The position numbers were made by a program, and so were the translations under genes. From the NCBI RefSeq assembly GCF_008065375.1, contig NZ_VJYI01000027.1, forward strand, positions 62,001-126,000: DNA of 64,000 bases, given 5' to 3'. The notes beneath the pieces were generated by a model. The model had not been told where the DNA came from. It ran no database searches and saw only the letters and a list, made by a program, of their open reading frames with translations. This stretch comes from Nonomuraea sp. SYSU D8015 (lineage in GTDB: Bacteria; Actinomycetota; Actinomycetes; Streptosporangiales; Streptosporangiaceae). This document shows, piece after piece, positions 1 to 8,557 of the stretch (positions are counted from its first letter, which is position 1; the number at the start of each line of letters is the position of its first letter).

Positions 1-177
1 CTTCTCCACGCCGATCTCCGCTACGCGATCCAGCCACGCGCCCACGTATCTGATGCCGTGGCGCGCGCATCCCCGTACGGTCTCCTCGAAGGTCCAGCTC
101 TTCACCGTGATCTGGTTGATGCTGAGGCGGTCCGTGACCATCGGCGCGTCCTCTTCGGCGGGGGGAGGGATGTCCAT
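1..177 (-). CDS. sugar phosphate isomerase/epimerase-like protein, N-terminal part (cut by window edge)
   Basis: Reading leftward from the ATG at 177-175 gives 59 open codons with no stop before the window edge. The segment VKSWTFEETVRGCARHGIRY is typical of the first strand and helix of xylose-isomerase-like TIM barrels (sugar phosphate isomerase/epimerase, IolE, 3-dehydroshikimate dehydratase). The start overlaps the stop of the upstream Gfo/Idh gene by one base (TGATG), so the two are probably translationally coupled. The Gfo/Idh plus TIM-barrel pairing is common in cyclitol and unusual-sugar catabolism. The substrate cannot be read from this fragment. A 3-dehydroshikimate dehydratase role would suit the AroE-like gene nearby, but that is inference. 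Confidence 0.7.
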   Translation of the reverse strand, partial: MDIPPPAEEDAPMVTDRLSINQITVKSWTFEETVRGCARHGIRYVGAWLDRVAEIGVEK

Positions 178-1337
178 CACAACGCCGGAATCTCCAGGTC
201 GGGGATGTCGATCCAACGGCGCTCGTGCCACGATCGCATCGCGAGCTCGGCGAGCTGAACGCCTTTGGCCCCTTCCAGCAGGTCCCACGGGAACTCGGCG
301 TCCTCGACGACGTGGCGGAGGAACATCTCCCACTGAATGCGGAACGCGTTGCCGAACTCCTGGTTGTCCGGAACCTCCGACCAGCCGGCCCGGAAGTCGA
401 TCGGGTTGGGGATGTCAGGATTCCAGACCGGCATCGGCGTGTTGGCGCGCGACTGCACGCGGCAGTCACGCAGTCCGGCGATGGCGCTGCCCAGCGTGCC
501 GTCGAGCTGCCATTCGCCGATCTCGTCGCGGTACGGGCGGGTCACCCACGAGGTGGTGAACTGCGCCAGCACACCGTTGTCGAACTGGAACATGCCGTAC
601 GCCGCGTCCTCGGCCGTCGCCCGGTATTCGTCGCCGTTCTCGTCCCAGCGGCGGGGGATGTGGACCTGGCCGTGGCAGAGCACGGACTTGACCGGTCCGA
701 TGATGTTGTCGAGCACGTACCGCCAGTGCGGGTACATGTCCAGGATCAGGCCGCCCCCCTCCTCCGCGCGGTAGTTCCACGATGGCCGGTTGGGCTGTTG
801 CCAGTCGCCTTCGAAGACCCAGTACCCGAAGTTGAGCCGGAAACTGAGGAGGTCTCCGAAGAACCCGCCGTCGATCAGCCGCTTCAGCTTGCGGATTCCC
901 GGCAGGAACAGCTTGTCCTGGACGACTCCGTGCTTGACGCCGGCCGCGTCGGCCAGCCGGACCAGTTCGAGCGCCTCATTGAGGTTGCCCGCGGTCGGCT
1001 TCTCGCAGAAGACGTGCTTGCCGGCCGCGATGGCCGCCTTGACGGCCTCGGCGCGCAGGTCGGTGAGCTGGGCGTCGAAGTAGATCGTGTCGTTCGGATC
1101 GGCGAGGGCCTCGTCGAGGCTGGTGGTCCAGCGATCGACGCCGTAGCGGCTCGCGAGCTCCTTGAGCTTGGCGGCGTTGCGGCCGACGAGAATCGGGTCG
1201 ACGAGGAGTTTTCGTCCATCGGCGAGGGTCAGCCCGCCCTGGTCCCTGATGGCGACGATCGACCGGTCGAGGTGCTGGCGAGTCCCCATCCGACCGGTGA
1301 CGCCGTTCATGATGATGCCCACCCGGATCTGGTCCAT
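177..1337 (-). CDS. Gfo/Idh/MocA family oxidoreductase
   Basis: A 386-residue NAD(P)-dependent dehydrogenase of the glucose-fructose oxidoreductase/inositol dehydrogenase family. The N-terminal Rossmann domain starts at MDQIRVGIIMNG. The family motif EKP (residues 112-114, in FCEKPTAGNL) supplies the catalytic-site lysine, and the C-terminal alpha/beta domain follows. I chose the ATG at 1337 because the dinucleotide-binding strand begins right after it; an in-frame start 30 bases upstream would run into the palindrome at 1364. It likely oxidises a hydroxyl of a sugar, cyclitol or related ring substrate. It is last but one in the minus-strand arm, downstream of the amidohydrolase, and has its own candidate operator just upstream. 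Confidence 0.88.
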   Translation of the reverse strand: MDQIRVGIIMNGVTGRMGTRQHLDRSIVAIRDQGGLTLADGRKLLVDPILVGRNAAKLKELASRYGVDRWTTSLDEALADPNDTIYFDAQLTDLRAEAVKAAIAAGKHVFCEKPTAGNLNEALELVRLADAAGVKHGVVQDKLFLPGIRKLKRLIDGGFFGDLLSFRLNFGYWVFEGDWQQPNRPSWNYRAEEGGGLILDMYPHWRYVLDNIIGPVKSVLCHGQVHIPRRWDENGDEYRATAEDAAYGMFQFDNGVLAQFTTSWVTRPYRDEIGEWQLDGTLGSAIAGLRDCRVQSRANTPMPVWNPDIPNPIDFRAGWSEVPDNQEFGNAFRIQWEMFLRHVVEDAEFPWDLLEGAKGVQLAELAMRSWHERRWIDIPDLEIPAL

Positions 1338-1363
1338 GCTCACTCTTTTCTTGAGGAAAAACT

Positions 1364-1375
1364 GCAAGCGCTTTC
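1364..1375. promoter_or_regulatory. LacI/GalR-type operator, imperfect copy
   Basis: GCAAGCGCTTTC matches the perfect palindrome at 2461-2472 at 11 of 12 positions. Its central CG and AAGCGCTT core are typical of LacI/GalR-family operators. It overlaps the amidohydrolase stop codon and lies 27 bases upstream of the Gfo/Idh start, where it could control an internal promoter. Confidence 0.6.
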
Positions 1376-2436
1376 TATATTTGCCACGTTTCCCCTGTCA
1401 AGGCCGCCGGGCGCCGGGAGCCGGCCAGCAGCCGCCGCGCGGTGGCTCCCAGGACGGCCGCGACCTGCTCGTCGGACAGGCGTTCACCCTGAGCGGCGGC
1501 CCTGGTGACGGCCTCGACGGGATCGGCGCACCCCGTCGGGAACGGGTAGTCGCTGCCGAGCATCACCTGGCCGGCGCCGGCGAAGCCGATCAGCCACGAC
1601 AGGGCCTGAGCCGAGTGGGTCAGCGAGTCGAAGTAGAGCCGCTGCAGGCATTCGCTCGGCGCGGCCATGCCCGGCGCCCGTTCCAGGGCGGCGATCGCGT
1701 CGAAGCGCCCGGCGACGTAGGGCAGGAAGCCGCCCCCGTGTACGACGCAAAGGCGCAGCTCGGGGAAGCGCCGGAGCGTTCCGGCCAGCGCCATGGCGCC
1801 GACGGCCGCCGTCGACTGGGCGGGATTGTCCACGATGTCGGTCAGGCGGGAGAAGGCGATCCCGGCAGGTGAGGCCGGCCGCCAGGGATGGAGGAGAACA
1901 AGGGCGCCGGCGCGGCTCGCCGCGTGCCAGAACGCGTCCCAGTCGGGCTCGTGGAGGGCGGGCCCGGAGCCTCCGAGACCGATCTCGGCGCCGTGGAAAC
2001 GGCCGGTGTCCAGGCAGCGGGCCATCTCGGCGGCGGCCGAGCGCGGATCCCGCCGGTCCACCAGCGCCAGGCCGCGAAGCCGGGCGGGCGCGTGGTCGAC
2101 CAGCTCTCCGAGGGAATCGTTGACCATCTGGACGAACCGTGCGCCGTCGCGAGGGCCGAGTTCGTCAGGCGTCAGCTCCATCCACGGCGAGACGACCTGG
2201 ACGTCTACTCCCATCTCGTCCATCGCGCTCAGCCGGCGGGACGGATCGGTCAGCCGCTCGTCGATCACCGGCGTCACACGGCCGCCGATGTCGAGGTGGA
2301 TCCCGTCCCCGTCCTCCAGCAGGGCCACGCCGGGGCGATCGGCTCGCAGACGCTCGATCAGGGTGTGCGGCACCGCGTGGGCGTGCACGTCGATGACCGG
2401 GATCCTCCTGGGCCCTTCCGTTGCCATTGTCGTCAT
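1375..2436 (-). CDS. amidohydrolase family protein (ACMSD-like TIM barrel)
   Basis: A 353-residue metal-dependent hydrolase or decarboxylase of the amidohydrolase-2 group (relatives: ACMSD, gamma-resorcylate decarboxylase, PDC lactonase). The first-strand metal ligands are seen as DVHAHAV (His18, His20), a later histidine in VVHGGGFLPY, and the conserved aspartate in GSDYPF near the C-terminus. Length is usual for the family. It could open or decarboxylate a cyclic intermediate. It is transcribed divergently from the SDR gene across a 56-base gap with a palindromic operator and is followed by the Gfo/Idh gene. ATG 2436 has no clear Shine-Dalgarno; ATG 2427 is an alternative start. Confidence 0.85.
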   Translation of the reverse strand: MTTMATEGPRRIPVIDVHAHAVPHTLIERLRADRPGVALLEDGDGIHLDIGGRVTPVIDERLTDPSRRLSAMDEMGVDVQVVSPWMELTPDELGPRDGARFVQMVNDSLGELVDHAPARLRGLALVDRRDPRSAAAEMARCLDTGRFHGAEIGLGGSGPALHEPDWDAFWHAASRAGALVLLHPWRPASPAGIAFSRLTDIVDNPAQSTAAVGAMALAGTLRRFPELRLCVVHGGGFLPYVAGRFDAIAALERAPGMAAPSECLQRLYFDSLTHSAQALSWLIGFAGAGQVMLGSDYPFPTGCADPVEAVTRAAAQGERLSDEQVAAVLGATARRLLAGSRRPAALTGETWQI

Positions 2437-2460
2437 GCTGTGAGAACGTACATGGAAATT

Positions 2461-2472
2461 GAAAGCGCTTTC
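2461..2472. promoter_or_regulatory. LacI/GalR-type operator, perfect palindrome
   Basis: GAAAGCGCTTTC is a perfect 12-base palindrome in the gap between the divergent amidohydrolase (start 2436) and SDR (start 2493) genes. The only other copy noticed, at 1364-1375, is in the same gene cluster. The form is that of a LacI-family operator. No LacI-type gene is in the window, so the regulator would be encoded to the left or elsewhere. Confidence 0.7.
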
Positions 2473-2492
2473 TAGTAGAGAAGGCTGATCGG

Positions 2493-3251
2493 ATGCGCTT
2501 GCAACCCCTGCTCGACCGGGTCGTCCTCGTCACCGGGGCCGGCCGCGGGATAGGGAGATCCATCGCGAAGACCGCCGCTCGTGGCGGAGCCCACGTCGCC
2601 ATCGCGTACCACTCGAGTGAGGCCGGGGCCCGCGAGGTTTCCGAGGAGATCCAGGCCCTCGGCCGCGACGCCGACATCCACCCGTGCGACGTGTCGGACC
2701 GGGGCGAGGTGTTCGCTCTCACGGCCTGGGCCGAGAAACGCTTCGGGCGGATAGACGGCCTGGTGAACAACGCCGGCATCATGCCGGAGTCCCCGTTCCT
2801 CGAGATGTCCCCCGAGGACTGGGACCTCGTCCTGAAGACCAACCTGTCGGGCATGTTCCATGCCAGCCAGGCGGTGCTTCCCGGGATGCTGGAGCGAGGC
2901 GGAGGCGTCATCGTCAACATCGCTTCCAGGCTCGGCCTGGTCGGCTGGCCGGGGGTCGCGCACTACGCGAGCGCGAAAGCCGGAGCGATAGCGCTCGCCA
3001 AATCGATCTCGCGGGAGTTCGGGCAGCGCGGAATCCGGGCGAACGCCGTGGCACCCGGCGTCACCAACACCGCCATGGGGCGCACCGTGATGGCGGGCGA
3101 GGTCGGCCGCCAGCGTATGCGGGAGCTGCCGCTCGGCCGGTTCGGGGAGCCCGAGGAGGTGGCCGAGTGTGTGGTCTTCCTCCTCTCGGACGCCTCCAGT
3201 CTGCTTCTCGGCCAGACGCTGAATCCCAACGGCGGCGGGCTGATGCCATGA
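2493..3251 (+). CDS. SDR family NAD(P)-dependent oxidoreductase
   Basis: A 252-residue classical short-chain dehydrogenase. It shows the cofactor motif TGAGRGIG (14-21), NNAG (92-95), the catalytic Ser145, and YASAK (Tyr158, Lys162). The C-terminus LLLGQTLNPNGGG is the usual SDR end. It resembles FabG and sugar or cyclitol dehydrogenases, so it probably interconverts an alcohol and a ketone. An AGAAGG ribosome-binding site lies about ten bases before the ATG. It is the first gene of the plus-strand arm, and its stop overlaps the CoA-transferase start as ATGA, which indicates translational coupling. Confidence 0.92.
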   Translation: MRLQPLLDRVVLVTGAGRGIGRSIAKTAARGGAHVAIAYHSSEAGAREVSEEIQALGRDADIHPCDVSDRGEVFALTAWAEKRFGRIDGLVNNAGIMPESPFLEMSPEDWDLVLKTNLSGMFHASQAVLPGMLERGGGVIVNIASRLGLVGWPGVAHYASAKAGAIALAKSISREFGQRGIRANAVAPGVTNTAMGRTVMAGEVGRQRMRELPLGRFGEPEEVAECVVFLLSDASSLLLGQTLNPNGGGLMP

Positions 3252-4819
3252 CTGGCAAGCTCATCGGCGTCGAACAGGCCGTGGATCTGGTGCGCGACGG
3301 CGACGCCCTGTGGATCGGCGGGTCGGGCGCGGGCCACGGCGTCCCGCAGTCGTTCATCGACGAACTCGCCGCGAAGTTCGCCCGTTCGGCGTCGCCGCGC
3401 GATCTGACGACCGTGCGTGTCGTCGGGATCGGTGACTTCGGCGACCGGGGCTTCTCCCAGCTCGCGCTGCCGGGGCTGACCCGCCGCACCATCGGGAGCA
3501 ACATCGGCAACGAGCCGCGCCTGGGCGCGCTGGCGGCCGAAGGCGCGATCGAGTCCTACTCGTTCCCCCAGGGTGTGCTCTCGGCGTTGTGCCGCGACAT
3601 CGCGGCGGGCCGTCCGGGCCACCTCACCCATGTGGGCCTGGGCACCTACGTGGACCCACGCCAGACCGGCGGGCGCCAGAACGTGCGCACCGCCGAGGAA
3701 CTGGTCCAGGTCGTCGAGCTGGCGGGGAGGGAGTGGCTCTTCTACCCGGCGCTGCCGGTCGACGTCGCGGTGATCCGCGCGACCACCGCCGACGAGGACG
3801 GCAACCTGACGTTCGAACGCGAGCCGATTCTCGGGGACTCCCTCGCGTTGGCCATGGCCGCGCACAACAGCGGCGGCCTCGTCATCGCCCAGGTCGAGCG
3901 CCTGGCGGCGCGGGGCACGCTGCGCCCGAACGAGGTGCGGATCCCCGGCGCGATCGTCGACCACGTCTACGTCGACCAGGAGCAGAGGCAGACCTACAGC
4001 ACCGGCTACTCCCCCTTCTACTCGGGAGAACTGCGCATGCCGTCCGGCGGCGGCGTCCCGACGCCGCTGAACGTCCGCAAGGTGATCGCGCGCCGCGCCC
4101 TCCTCGAATTCCGCCCCGGCGACATCTGCAACCTGGGCTTCGGCATCTCCCAGCAGATCGGCGCCGTGGCCGCCGAGGAGGGCGTGTCGGAACGCTTGAC
4201 CCTCACGGTCGAGCAGGGGATCTTCGGGGGCATCCCCGCGCACGGCCCGGACGGCGGTGCGGGGGTGAACTACCAGGCGCGCCTGGAGCAGCCCTCGATG
4301 TTCGACTTCTACGACGGCGGTGGCCTCGACATCGCGAGTCTCTCGTTCGCGCAGGTGGACCAGCACGGGAACGTCAACGTCCACGCGTTCGACGAGCGCA
4401 TGAGAGGCCCGGGCGGATTCGTCAACATCAGCGCTCTGACCAGGCGCCTCTGCTTCGTCGGGACGTTCACGGCCGGCGGCGTGCGCGTCGCGCTGACCGA
4501 CGGGGCGCCCAAGATCGAACGCGAGGGGGTCCAGCGCAAGTTCGTCAAGGCTGTCAGAGAGATCAGCTTCAACGGCCGGATCGCGCTGAGCAAGGGGCAG
4601 GTCGTCCGGTACATCACCGAACGCGCTGTCTTCGCCCTGACAGCGGAGGGCCTGGAGTTGATCGAGATCGCCGACGGGCTGGACGTGGAAAAGGACGTGC
4701 TCGCGCACATGGAGTTCCGGCCGAAGGTCAGCGGGCGCCTGCGCCTCATGGACGCACGCCTGTTCCTCCCCGCTCGCATGGGGATCGCCGCCGACTTCAC
4801 CGCCGACGAGAGGAGCTGA
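3248..4819 (+). CDS. acyl-CoA:carboxylate CoA-transferase (YdiF/propionate CoA-transferase type)
   Basis: A 523-residue family I CoA-transferase with fused alpha and beta halves. The alpha half has GxGxGH-like glycines near residue 20 (GGSGAGHG). The beta half has the catalytic glutamate in TVEQGIFGG (Glu322), followed by GIPAHGPDGG. Family I enzymes form a glutamyl-CoA thioester to move CoA from a donor thioester to a carboxylate. The ATG overlaps the SDR stop; the frame is open far upstream, but the homologous sequence MTGKLIGVEQAVDLV starts here. In this operon it would activate a carboxylic acid intermediate for the following enoyl-CoA hydratase. Confidence 0.92.
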   Translation: MTGKLIGVEQAVDLVRDGDALWIGGSGAGHGVPQSFIDELAAKFARSASPRDLTTVRVVGIGDFGDRGFSQLALPGLTRRTIGSNIGNEPRLGALAAEGAIESYSFPQGVLSALCRDIAAGRPGHLTHVGLGTYVDPRQTGGRQNVRTAEELVQVVELAGREWLFYPALPVDVAVIRATTADEDGNLTFEREPILGDSLALAMAAHNSGGLVIAQVERLAARGTLRPNEVRIPGAIVDHVYVDQEQRQTYSTGYSPFYSGELRMPSGGGVPTPLNVRKVIARRALLEFRPGDICNLGFGISQQIGAVAAEEGVSERLTLTVEQGIFGGIPAHGPDGGAGVNYQARLEQPSMFDFYDGGGLDIASLSFAQVDQHGNVNVHAFDERMRGPGGFVNISALTRRLCFVGTFTAGGVRVALTDGAPKIEREGVQRKFVKAVREISFNGRIALSKGQVVRYITERAVFALTAEGLELIEIADGLDVEKDVLAHMEFRPKVSGRLRLMDARLFLPARMGIAADFTADERS

Positions 4820-4820
4820 C

Positions 4821-5594
4821 ATGGCCGCGCTGGTCAACGTGACATATGGGGTGTGCGCGGAGATCGAGCTGGACAACCCGCCGATGAACGTGGTCTCACA
4901 TGAGGTGACCGCGCGGCTCCGCGAGGCACTGCGCGCCGTCGAGGCCGATGAGCGCACCCGTGTCGTCGTGCTCCACGGTGCCGGTGATCGGGCGTTCTGC
5001 GCGGGATCGGACATCGCCGAGTTCGAAGACCTGCACGGCCGGGTGGCCGAGGGCAAGCTCCTGCTGGAGAAGCTGGTGTACCGGCAGGTGGCCAAGCTGC
5101 GGGTGCCGTCCATAGCGGCCATCGAGGGGTACGCCCTCGGCGGGGGCCTCGAACTCGCCCTGTGCTGCGACCTGCGGATCGCGGGGGAGCGTGCCAGACT
5201 CGGCCTGCCTGAGCTGAAGCTCGGGGTCGTCCCGGGAAGCGGCGGCACTCAACGGCTCCCGCGCATCGTCGGGCCCGCCCGCGCCAAGGAGATCATCCTG
5301 CTGGGGGAGATTCTCGACGCCGCGACCGCGCTGTCGATCGGCTTGGTCAACCGGGTGGTGCGGGCGGGCTCAGCCCTGGCCGCGGCGCGCGAGATGGCGG
5401 AGACCATCGCCGCCCGCGGGCCGGTCGCGGTACAGACCGCGAAATCACTCATCGACCAGGCGACCGAGCGGACCCTGGACGACGGGCTGGCCCTCGAACT
5501 CGACGCGTCAGAGAAGATCTTCTCCACTCAGGACGCCCTCGAAGGCGCGCGGGCCTTCCTGTCGAAGCGTCCGCCGACCTTCACCGGTCACTGA
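4821..5594 (+). CDS. enoyl-CoA hydratase/isomerase (crotonase) family protein
   Basis: A 257-residue crotonase-fold protein. The oxyanion-hole segments are AFCAGSDIAEF and ALGGGLELALCCDLRI. Both glutamates used for water addition appear kept: Glu131 in LPELKLGVVPGSGGTQRL and Glu157 in AKEIILLGE. Hydratase chemistry is therefore plausible, although ring-opening or C-C hydrolase members share the fold. It starts one base after the CoA-transferase stop, so it is in the same operon and probably acts on the CoA ester formed by its neighbour. Confidence 0.92.
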   Translation: MAALVNVTYGVCAEIELDNPPMNVVSHEVTARLREALRAVEADERTRVVVLHGAGDRAFCAGSDIAEFEDLHGRVAEGKLLLEKLVYRQVAKLRVPSIAAIEGYALGGGLELALCCDLRIAGERARLGLPELKLGVVPGSGGTQRLPRIVGPARAKEIILLGEILDAATALSIGLVNRVVRAGSALAAAREMAETIAARGPVAVQTAKSLIDQATERTLDDGLALELDASEKIFSTQDALEGARAFLSKRPPTFTGH

Positions 5595-5639
5595 CCAATG
5601 ACCTGCATGGAACCTTCGACAATCTTCAGGGGAATCGTG

Positions 5640-6488
5640 ATGCGCACAGTCGCTCTGTTCGGAAACCCGCTGCGCCGTGCCCATTCCGTCGTCATGCACA
5701 ACGCCGCATTCGCCGCCTTCGGCATCGACGCCCGCTATGAACTGCGCGAGGTGCAGGAGTCACAACTGGCCGATCAGGTGCGGCAGGCCAGGGATGAGAA
5801 GTGGCTCGGCTTTCAGGTCACCGCCCCGTACAAGCAGGCGATCATGCCCCTGCTCGACGAGGTCGAGCTCGGCGCCCGGCGGATCGGCGCCGTCAACAGC
5901 GTGGAGATCGACGCGATGGGCCGGCTGATCGGCTTCAACACCGACGTGACCGGCTTCATGACGGGAGTGCGGGCCTGCGCGGGCGAGGATCTGACCGGCG
6001 CCCGGGTCGTCGTCGCCGGCTCCGGCGGAGTGAGCCACGCCGCGACGTACGGCCTGGCCGAAGCGGGAGCCGGCTGCCTCACCGTTCTCGATCTCGATGT
6101 GGCCGACTCGCGCAGGCTCGCCGACGAGTTCAGCGCGTTCGCGCGGATCGAACCCATGGCCCTCGACGATCCTCGGGCCGGCGACCGGCTCGCCGAGGCG
6201 GATCTGTTCGTCAATGCCACGTCGGTCGGCATGCTGACCCCGGGGCCCGTGGTGGACGTCTCCCGCATCTCACCGGCGGCCGCGGTGTTCGACGTCGTGT
6301 ACATCCCCAGAGAGACCGAACTCGTGCGCCAGGCCAAGGCCCGCGGCATGCGCGCGGCAGGCGGCACCGACATGCTGGTAGCCCAGGCGGCCACGGCCTT
6401 CGTTCGCTGGACCGGCACGGACGATCCCACGAACGTCATGCGGAAAGCACTCGAACCGCTACTCCTTCGCGACGATCTCGTTCCCTGA
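5640..6488 (+). CDS. shikimate/quinate dehydrogenase-like protein (AroE family)
   Basis: A 282-residue AroE-type enzyme. The substrate-binding motif NPLRRAHS lies at residues 9-16. The catalytic lysine is in VTAPYKQAI (Lys65). The partner aspartate is in FNTDVTG (Asp102), and the NAD(P) loop is GSGGVSHA (127-134). I start at ATG 5640 because AGGGGA at 5628-5633 gives a good ribosome-binding site and homology begins at once; an ATG 42 bases upstream adds a non-conserved leader. Its place at the end of a catabolic operon suggests a degradative quinate/shikimate or related cyclitol-acid dehydrogenase rather than the housekeeping AroE. Confidence 0.88.
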   Translation: MRTVALFGNPLRRAHSVVMHNAAFAAFGIDARYELREVQESQLADQVRQARDEKWLGFQVTAPYKQAIMPLLDEVELGARRIGAVNSVEIDAMGRLIGFNTDVTGFMTGVRACAGEDLTGARVVVAGSGGVSHAATYGLAEAGAGCLTVLDLDVADSRRLADEFSAFARIEPMALDDPRAGDRLAEADLFVNATSVGMLTPGPVVDVSRISPAAAVFDVVYIPRETELVRQAKARGMRAAGGTDMLVAQAATAFVRWTGTDDPTNVMRKALEPLLLRDDLVP

Positions 6489-7290: not shown

Positions 7291-7564
7291 CCACCCTGCC
7301 ACGGCGCATCGAAGCAGCAGGACCGGCGCACACGTTAGCTCCCGGCACAGGGGCGACGGGCAGCCCAGGCGCGACCAGCAGCTCCTCACCGCAGGCGTCC
7401 GCGACGATCCGATCAAGTTGACCGGGACGACAGCGGCGGTTTCGTCACGCTGCCAGAATGTTCAGTAGTCGACCTCAGTGTCGGAATGCGGTGGGTCGGA
7501 TCAGACGGGAAGGTCCTGGACGGTCGCTCGGAGAGCAGCGCTGGCGGCGCTACGCTGCTGTGTC
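7291..7564. other. intergenic, no gene recognised
   Basis: Short open frames on both strands show no family resemblance. The region probably holds the promoter of the PLP-dependent lyase that starts at 7565. Confidence 0.4.
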
Positions 7565-8557
7565 ATGCAGGACACGCGTCTCGACACCGCTCGGATCCGG
7601 GCGGCTCGCCGAGTCATCGACCCAATTTTTCTCGATACTCCGCTGTACCGCTGCCAGGCGCTGGAGCCCGACCTCGGGTGCACGGTGAGCATCAAGCTAG
7701 AAACGGCGAACCCTGTGCGCAGCTTCAAGGGGCGGGGCACCGAGTTGGTCGCGAGTCTGCTTGCCGAGAATGGATCGCGAGCCGTGGTGTGCGCCAGCGC
7801 GGGCAATCTTGGCCAAGCCCTCGCGTGGTCTGGGCGCGGCCGGCGGCTCGACGTCACCGTTGTGGCATCCCGCTTCGCGCCCGCGGCCAAGCTTGATCGC
7901 ATCCGCGCATTGGGCGCCCGCTTGGAGCTGGTGGACGGCGATTTCGACATGGCACGCGAGCGGGCAGCGGCGATCGCTCGGTACGCCGGCATCCGGCTGG
8001 TCGAAGACAGCCTGGACATCGAGACCTGCGAGGGCGCGGCTACCATCGGCTTGGAACTGGTGGACACCCTGGTGGACACCGCGCCGCCGTTTGACGCCGT
8101 CCTGATCGCTCTCGGCGGCGGGGCGATGGCCACTGGTGTGGGTCATGTGCTGAAGGCATTGGCGCCCGGCGTCGAGGTGATCTGCGTCCAGCCGCTGGGT
8201 GCACCGGCGATGACACACTCGTGGCACCAGCGGCGCGTCGTCACCACCGATTCGACCGACACCATCGCCGACGGCGTCGCCGGCCGGTGTCCCATTCCGG
8301 CCGTCCTGGACGACCTCCTCCTGGTCGTTGACGACGCCGTCCTGGTCCGGGAGACATCGATCATCGCCGGGATGCGGTTGCTCCTCCACCACGCCGGCCT
8401 CGTTGTCGAACCGTCGGCGGCGCTCGGCATCGCGGCGATCCTCGAAAACCGCGACCGCTTCGCCGGTCGGCACGTCGTCACCATCGTGTGCGGCAGCAAT
8501 GTCGACGTGGACGCCTATCACCGCTGGGTCGGTGCGGCTCCCCTCCACGGGGTTTGA
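7565..8557 (+). CDS. PLP-dependent threonine/serine dehydratase-like ammonia-lyase
   Basis: A 330-residue fold-type II PLP enzyme. The Schiff-base lysine is in VRSFKGRGTE (Lys55). The asparagine contact is in ASAGNLGQALA, and the phosphate-binding glycine loop is GGGAMATG (184-191). There is no C-terminal ACT domain, so it resembles catabolic threonine dehydratase, serine racemase or hydroxyaspartate ammonia-lyase. The ATG at 7565 is chosen because the conserved N-terminus (RIRAARRVIDPIFLDTPL) begins there; the open frame upstream is not conserved. It is an isolated gene flanked by decayed sequence. Confidence 0.85.
   Translation: MQDTRLDTARIRAARRVIDPIFLDTPLYRCQALEPDLGCTVSIKLETANPVRSFKGRGTELVASLLAENGSRAVVCASAGNLGQALAWSGRGRRLDVTVVASRFAPAAKLDRIRALGARLELVDGDFDMARERAAAIARYAGIRLVEDSLDIETCEGAATIGLELVDTLVDTAPPFDAVLIALGGGAMATGVGHVLKALAPGVEVICVQPLGAPAMTHSWHQRRVVTTDSTDTIADGVAGRCPIPAVLDDLLLVVDDAVLVRETSIIAGMRLLLHHAGLVVEPSAALGIAAILENRDRFAGRHVVTIVCGSNVDVDAYHRWVGAAPLHGV

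Follow-up and report, generated by a model that had tools for sequence, protein, structure and literature searches.

The window analysed here is a 64,000-nucleotide stretch of the Nonomuraea sp. SYSU D8015 genome (12.43 Mb in 71 contigs; G000:C25:62001-126000), which opens with a divergent cluster described in the original prediction as a tightly packed seven-gene locus. Open reading frames and Pfam matches bear out the gene families and the packing; six of the genes are complete in this part of the window, and the seventh contributes its first 141 bases (Table 1). The left arm, on the minus strand, encodes a TIM-barrel protein, a Gfo/Idh/MocA dehydrogenase (hereafter Gfo) and an amidohydrolase (AH1). 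The right arm, on the plus strand, encodes a short-chain dehydrogenase/reductase (SDR), a CoA-transferase, an enoyl-CoA hydratase (ECH) and an AroE-like dehydrogenase. The arms diverge across 56 bases and the right-arm genes are spaced by -4, 1 and 3 bases, the start of the CoA-transferase gene overlapping the end of the SDR gene by 4 bases. The conserved part of the AroE-like protein begins at MRTVALFG, 14 codons past the first ATG.

The 3′ part of the TIM-barrel gene lies upstream of the window on the same contig (G000:C25:61323-62000). Seven further genes just outside the window, four for an ABC importer, one for a second amidohydrolase (AH2) and two for LacI-type regulators (LacI1 and LacI2), bring the full unit to approximately 14 genes instead of seven. 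The order in this upstream region (L009) is AH2, permease, ATPase, permease and NMT1-family binding protein on the minus strand, then LacI1 and LacI2 on the plus strand, followed by the TIM-Gfo-AH1 arm. Genes were called from open reading frames and Pfam for the window and upstream proteins; NCBIfam cut-offs were applied to the window proteins and all 14 cluster proteins were scanned with Pfam.

Table 1 Genes and putative operator sites of the cluster within the window.
Feature	Position	Strand	Remarks
TIM-barrel gene, 5′ end (AP_endonuc_2 / xylose-isomerase-like, 272 aa whole)	1..141	-	PF01261, 130 bits
Gfo/Idh/MocA dehydrogenase, 386 aa	177..1337	-	PF22725/PF02894/PF01408
LacI-type operator site 2 (CTGCAAGCGCTTTCTA)	1362..1377		24 bases before Gfo start, overlaps AH1 stop codon
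Amidohydrolase AH1, ACMSD-like (Amidohydro_2), 353 aa	1375..2436	-	PF04909, 112 bits
LacI-type operator site 1 (TTGAAAGCGCTTTCTA)	2459..2474		Within the 56-base divergent promoter common to both arms
SDR dehydrogenase, FabG-like, 252 aa	2493..3251	+	YxxxK and NNAG retained
Family I CoA-transferase, fused YdiF/FadX type, 523 aa	3248..4819	+	PF01144, 124 bits
Enoyl-CoA hydratase (crotonase), 257 aa	4821..5594	+	Pfam; E111, E131
AroE-like dehydrogenase, 296 aa from first ATG	5598..6488	+	K, N, D, Q of active site retained

Conservation, co-inheritance and operators of the two arms

The two arms form one system, the arrangement of which is not due to chance. A CoA-transferase protein search of 297 genomes of the order gave 29 at E ≤ 1e-60, eight of these (the Nonomuraea genome included) being at least 75% identical, and Georgenia subflava, Actinomadura rubrisoli and A. 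macra came from a search of named genomes with the AroE-like protein. With Actinomadura sp. KC216 and genome G293 taken as one locus, ten loci show the region whole, in the Nonomuraea genome, in eight others of the order and in Georgenia. The eleventh, G283, ends at a contig end and shows a partial CoA-transferase, then ECH, AroE-like, AH2, importer and LacI1 genes. All ten whole loci contain SDR, CoA-transferase, ECH, AroE-like, Gfo and LacI2. As the loci were found via right-arm proteins (CoA-transferase and AroE-like), it is the left arm and LacI2 that constitute independent evidence. A gene for a DUF993 protein lies between TIM and Gfo in six of the ten (G293, G199, G226, Georgenia, A. rubrisoli and A. 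macra). AH2 with at least part of the importer occurs in 10 of the 11 loci (in Georgenia, not within the 20.8 kb examined); the importer block is found on the opposite side of the right arm in two loci, G258 and G283, and still accompanies that arm.

For Gfo, SDR, CoA-transferase, ECH, AroE-like and LacI2, taken two at a time in every combination, the pairwise distances among the ten loci have correlations of 0.91-0.98. Vertical descent among related genomes also gives such correlations and the discordance between genera is therefore the stronger argument: G272, a member of another genus (g18, with G293, G199 and G226), is nearest to the genus of the window for all six proteins. Because of this, and because Georgenia belongs to a different order from that of Actinomadura and Nonomuraea, the simple reading is that the cluster would have been transferred between genomes as one unit.

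A 16-base LacI-type palindrome, YTGNAAGCGCTTTCTA, is found in the divergent promoter and is repeated before Gfo. It has the central CG expected at the promoter of a LacI-regulated operon, judged from sequence only. The 14-base version has four strand-matches in the window (each of the two sites, on both strands), where shuffling predicts 0.11, and the consensus has two exact matches in the whole 12.4-Mb genome, both at this cluster. Directly before Gfo, 10/10 loci have a copy in agreement with the consensus. The divergent-region operator is likewise present in every one of them, exact in the Nonomuraea genome and G258 and differing from TTGAAAGCGCTTTCTA at two to four positions in the remaining eight. 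Operator variants precede LacI2 in Georgenia, A. macra, G199 and G226, which suggests that LacI2 may regulate its own gene. The sole single-mismatch match in the Nonomuraea genome is on contig C7 (L198, G000:C7:133173-133188), between a TIM-barrel gene, behind which lies a LacI gene, and a gene for a sugar-type ABC binding protein (named by eye).

The interval from the binding-protein gene to LacI1 carries two other palindromes, AGGCAAACGTATGCCT and one like AGGCAAACGTTGTCCT, in all eight loci where it is in view. Their spacing is 126-128 bases in seven of the eight (128 in the Nonomuraea genome; L009, 10895-11038) and 105 in G249, and the AGGCAAACGTATGCCT site has no other match in the Nonomuraea genome at up to one mismatch. 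It is possible that they are an operator pair for DNA looping. LacI2 would probably control both arms and LacI1 the importer and AH2, a pairing of regulators with sites, and a binding, that are predicted from the DNA. Co-conservation in ten loci, the shared operator and co-inheritance together uphold the earlier view of a dedicated catabolic locus with both arms in one system. The original prediction had named other genomes as the place where the arms might prove unrelated; in those compared here they stayed together.

Enzymes of the cluster and their relatives

The CoA-transferase and ECH bear out the original prediction of enzymes for CoA activation and β-oxidation-like steps. The CoA-transferase matches YdiF (2ahu; E 4e-145), retains the Glu in the YdiF 'TVE' stretch and has both the CoA_trans domain (PF01144) and the catalytic Glu of the Family I YdiF/FadX transferases; its score against the FadX equivalog model is 389.6 bits, below the cut-off of 750. 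The ECH Glu pair, E111 and E131, is at the sites of both catalytic Glu of the canonical hydratase, with a spacing of 20 residues like that in the rat enzyme.

The nearest solved structures to the TIM-barrel protein are 7vpf (E 1e-83), 3qc0 and 3ju2, and in the alignments it has Gln where 7vpf and 3qc0 share His. SMc04130 (3ju2), followed as a lead, gave no function. The nearest solved relative of Gfo, 3oqb (E 3e-161), is labelled just 'Oxidoreductase'. Gfo retains the EKP and DxxxH motifs. Its resemblance to 3oqb and to the Gfo proteins linked with DUF993 (~54-62%) greatly exceeds that to PmdC or the dihydrodiol dehydrogenases. The protein scores 71.3 bits against the IolG equivalog model (cut-off 355) and 64.3 bits against that of levoglucosan dehydrogenase (cut-off 650). 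The levoglucosan pathway was rejected on the latter score, which is far below the cut-off. The myo-inositol (Iol) pathway was rejected on the former and on the absence from the 14 cluster proteins, in Pfam, of the thiamine diphosphate enzyme family of the hydrolase IolD.

AH1 is similar to ACMSD in its metal ligands (HxH, H, H, D: HAH 18-20, H183, H233 and D296) and in overall sequence (E 3e-35), and is matched by no NCBIfam model. Arg47 of human ACMSD (numbered by counting in the alignments) serves in substrate binding and is Pro in AH1, and an ACMSD identity was rejected for this reason. AH2 has Tyr in place of the first His of HxH, the same as in its nearest relative, the uncharacterised 3ij6; next nearest are the γ-resorcylate and 5-carboxyvanillate decarboxylases.

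The AroE-like protein has shikimate and quinate/shikimate dehydrogenases as its nearest solved relatives. P[YH]K and NTD, with the catalytic Lys and Asp that we take to be K65 and D102 in Escherichia coli numbering, are retained in all 11 cluster orthologues. Its NCBIfam scores are below the cut-offs (the best 208.5 against 252; TIGR00507, 186 against 200.2; the NAD quinate/shikimate model, 151.7 against 515). SxS (or SxT) near the N terminus is the carboxylate-binding motif of the shikimate/quinate dehydrogenases, and its first Ser is lost in 11/11 orthologues (A, L, T, R, R, R, R, Q, Q, R, R). This Ser is present in the other AroE of the same genome (open reading frame in L177) and in all five other AroE proteins aligned. 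Membership of the true AroE proteins was rejected on the lost Ser and the NCBIfam scores. The window protein is thus, as predicted from its residues, an accessory dehydrogenase; since the first Ser is lost, unlike in ordinary AroE proteins, its substrate need not bear the carboxylate of shikimate.

An AroE fold that acts on a sugar is found in 5-ketofructose reductase (7cok; Tatumella KFR), which also lacks SxS and retains the catalytic Lys and NTD. The residues at the site are N-x-T, compared with A/L/T/R/Q-x-S in the cluster proteins. Extracts of one report describe a 5-ketofructose reductase of this kind as related to shikimate dehydrogenases and another putative shikimate dehydrogenase as inactive on 5-ketofructose (PMC7954740), so that the AroE fold alone predicts nothing about the substrate. 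On a Paracoccus denitrificans plasmid (L188, 4472-8941), the product of a gene annotated as shikimate dehydrogenase has lost both SxS Ser (V-x-A). This gene is between aldehyde dehydrogenase and FAH genes and adjoins a DHDPS-family gene; it probably belongs to sugar-acid catabolism, its annotation being misleading.

A second group of CoA-transferase–AroE-like clusters is found in the Burkholderiales and Rhizobium (Caballeronia NK8, C. zhejiangensis (truncated), Paraburkholderia PGU19 and PREW-6R, P. caribensis plasmids 1 and 2, and Rhizobium WL3). Their CoA-transferases are 48-54% identical to that of the window, the ECH of NK8 is 51% identical and the three AroE-like proteins compared are 27-35% identical, with Val at the first Ser of SxS in 7/7. 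P. caribensis plasmid 2 has MaoC, CoA-transferase, AroE-like, DUF993 and TIM genes together, and PREW-6R has CoA-transferase, FAH, AroE-like, MaoC, TIM and CoA-transferase. Except for P. caribensis plasmid 2, these clusters hold FAH, and in most cases also a protein of 217-246 aa, at the place of the window cluster's amidohydrolases; no Gfo was seen in them apart from PREW-6R, which has a single weak match (50 bits). The protein of 217-246 aa is conserved, has no Pfam match (L159, 6346-7083; L175, 7783-8433) and accompanies CoA-transferase, AroE-like, FAH and MaoC on plasmids of Caballeronia, Paraburkholderia and Rhizobium.

DUF993 is a candidate relative of the DHDPS/N-acetylneuraminate lyase superfamily (hhalign probability 65%, E 6e-5), with the putative Schiff-base Lys and GDD aligned. 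It was found in 149/200 genomes of the order and in all eight cluster genomes searched. The only copy is in the cluster in G226 and G293; G199 has one copy in the cluster and one outside; and in the Nonomuraea genome, G249, G272, G258 and G283 it is found only elsewhere. The single copy found in the Nonomuraea genome, on contig C1, is 88% identical to the DUF993 protein of N. gerenzanensis. It is part of a paralogous module (L010, 7740-11975) of TIM (50% identical to that of the cluster), DUF993 and Gfo (62%), which has as neighbours a divergent phytanoyl-CoA dioxygenase-like gene (by eye) and an AraC-type regulator.

Such modules, which the Gfo-TIM part of the cluster resembles, are widespread. 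Similar sets are found on the Sinorhizobium meliloti pSymB replicon (Gfo 59.5% identical), with mandelate racemase and TIM, and on Paenarthrobacter pAO1, without TIM and with a GMC oxidoreductase, aldehyde dehydrogenase and glycerate kinase. Unlike the window cluster, the C1, pSymB and pAO1 sets have no CoA-transferase, ECH, AroE-like gene or amidohydrolase pair in the stretches examined. Other plasmid Gfo-DUF993 pairs have TIM for a neighbour, together with either enolase or mandelate-racemase genes or a tripartite transporter. A CoA-transferase is paired with SDR and DUF993 in both G120 and G169, and genes for aldehyde dehydrogenase, glycerate kinase and a GMC protein (by eye) are near the pair in G169. 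The solved DUF993 protein 4dnh, which we take to be SMc04132, carries the name 'Uncharacterized protein'. Plasmid pAO1 is reported to carry an oxidative xylose pathway. Extracts of two pAO1 papers (PMC10494377, PMC6214936) gave nothing useful on its Gfo-DUF993 set, and those of PMC12542648 gave no function for SMc04133.

A gene for a threonine/serine dehydratase-like, pyridoxal phosphate-dependent protein (PF00291, 238 bits; window 7478-8557) lies approximately 1 kb downstream of the cluster. Rfam at gathering scores gave no match within the window.

Proposed function and alternative explanations

We consider it about an even prospect that the cluster supplies the enzymes of one catabolic regulon, approximately 14 genes in size and under LacI control, which serves a small sugar- or cyclitol-like polyol or its conjugate. 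Parts of both arms have relatives in sugar or sugar-acid gene sets, which supports a substrate of this kind. The sugar-acid precedent is the deoxyribonate pathway of Klebsiella michiganensis, for which handling of the acids as CoA thioesters has been proposed (PMC6365646). According to the extracts of that paper, the pathway likewise has a β-hydroxyacyl-CoA dehydrogenase and a CoA-transferase; it uses a CoA-synthetase, a thiolase and a glycerate kinase, and no Gfo, TIM, amidohydrolase or AroE-like protein is named there. In agreement with the original prediction that no standard pathway combines these families, none was found in the full-text literature: no paper dealt with the gene-family combination, the DUF993 name or the accessions, in a coverage that excludes most subscription journals. 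Among the papers retrieved that link ydiF and ydiB with CoA-transferase and shikimate, titles and abstract openings likewise indicate no such pathway.

From the computed gene content, co-conservation, co-inheritance, operator sequences and residue conservation we infer operator binding, the substrate class, and every reaction and its order, as follows. The NMT1-type ABC importer would take the compound up and the adjacent AH2 would probably act on it first. Gfo and the AroE-like protein would oxidise secondary hydroxyls with NAD(P), and the metal-dependent TIM barrel and AH1 would isomerise, dehydrate or hydrolyse the resulting ketone. DUF993, as a putative Schiff-base-type lyase, would cleave the carbon chain, after which a short hydroxy or unsaturated acid may be activated by the YdiF-type CoA-transferase. 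ECH would then hydrate the CoA product and the SDR would oxidise it to a 3-ketoacyl-CoA for ordinary thiolysis. An equally plausible alternative is that the CoA-transferase only recycles CoA from a cleavage product.

More tentatively, as a possibility that we rate below an even one, the cluster may represent a new CoA-dependent polyol route. This would consist of oxidations by Gfo and an SxS-less AroE-like protein, metal-dependent rearrangement or ring opening, C-C cleavage by DUF993 and a lower part of CoA-transferase, hydratase and SDR. Kept with variations in actinobacteria and Burkholderiales, it would give a function to DUF993 and to CoA-transferase-linked 'shikimate dehydrogenases'.

Several observations weigh against these proposals. 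TIM is present in nine of the ten whole loci (missing in G249) and AH1 in eight (missing in G249 and G258). No curated NCBIfam equivalog places any window protein at a pathway step. The presence of DUF993 in all cluster genomes searched means little, because its base rate is ~75%, and the proposed Schiff-base lyase role rests on an hhalign probability of 65% with the Lys aligned. Forty-six CoA-transferase places outside the cluster were checked with four AroE-type queries, and an AroE-like gene is near seven, all on proteobacterial plasmids; the 12 plasmid regions among them were taken non-randomly, from the top matches. None is near the 34 other actinobacterial places (21 of the order, 13 of the class), which comprise 10 with long flanks (two on short contigs) and 24 with 1.5-kb flanks only; the CoA-transferase relatives in G227, G120, G169 and seven genomes of the class have no AroE-like gene. 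On a plasmid of Streptomyces sp. NBC_00335 (L189, 7977-10304) an SxS-less AroE-like gene (V-x-A) is beside type I polyketide synthase and DAHP synthase genes, and this subfamily may serve in biosynthesis there. A gene for an FAD monooxygenase, a 4-hydroxybenzoate monooxygenase or a protocatechuate dioxygenase is found in five of the seven AH2-relative regions examined; of the other two, one has no such gene and one has no annotation.

These AH2 neighbourhoods led us to give more weight to catabolism of an aromatic or heteroaromatic acid and less to the CoA-dependent polyol route. AH1 and AH2 would then be a decarboxylase or meta-cleavage hydrolase and Gfo a semialdehyde or dihydrodiol dehydrogenase, while the right arm would finish the aliphatic acid. 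The nearness of AH1 to ACMSD, that of AH2 to the two decarboxylases after 3ij6, the aromatic-type oxygenase genes near AH2 relatives and the NMT1-type importer all fit. No ring-hydroxylating or ring-cleaving oxygenase is encoded among the 14 genes, however, AH1 is without the Arg47 of ACMSD, Gfo is close to 3oqb and the DUF993-linked proteins and far from PmdC and the dihydrodiol dehydrogenases, and the regulators are of the LacI type. The aromatic-derived substrate of the original prediction keeps the support of the AH2 relatives and is unlikely overall. A hydroaromatic substrate (quinate, shikimate or a related cyclitol acid) is doubtful to a greater degree. The AroE-like protein would oxidise a cyclohexane carboxylate, the CoA-transferase would activate the carboxylate and the ring would open by β-oxidation logic, as suits its nearest solved relatives, its retained Lys, Asn, Asp and Gln and the occurrence of a CoA-transferase and a crotonase in one operon. 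Against this, the first Ser of SxS is lost throughout, the scores fall below the cut-offs of all matched NCBIfam models, and neither dehydroquinate dehydratase nor protocatechuate dioxygenase was found by Pfam among the 14 cluster proteins, the TIM barrel not having been checked for a 3-dehydroshikimate dehydratase role. The quinate-like substrate of the original prediction is not upheld on these grounds.

Biosynthesis of an aminocyclitol-like or other secondary metabolite is very improbable. AroE-like, SDR and Gfo enzymes occur in cyclitol biosynthesis too, and the Streptomyces relative has biosynthetic neighbours; the cluster, by contrast, has an importer-type ABC system with a binding protein, a CoA-transferase with a canonical ECH and LacI regulators, and none of the polyketide synthase, nonribosomal peptide synthetase or sugar-phosphate cyclase families among its 14 genes. 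The explanation that the arms are unrelated neighbours draws on their divergent transcription and on CoA-transferase relatives, and Gfo with TIM, found elsewhere without the other arm. Gfo is beside the right arm in 10/10 loci, and this conservation, the shared operator and the co-inheritance led to its rejection as scarcely credible. What stands of the original interpretation is the dedicated two-arm catabolic system, and what is weakened is its quinate-like reading.

For the polyol regulon, the near-unique operators offer a direct handle, as the ligand that releases LacI1 or LacI2 is likely to be the substrate or an intermediate. If the CoA-dependent polyol route is true, genes named 'shikimate dehydrogenase' beside CoA-transferases would be polyol-catabolic, and DUF993, a very common uncharacterised family, would gain a testable role.

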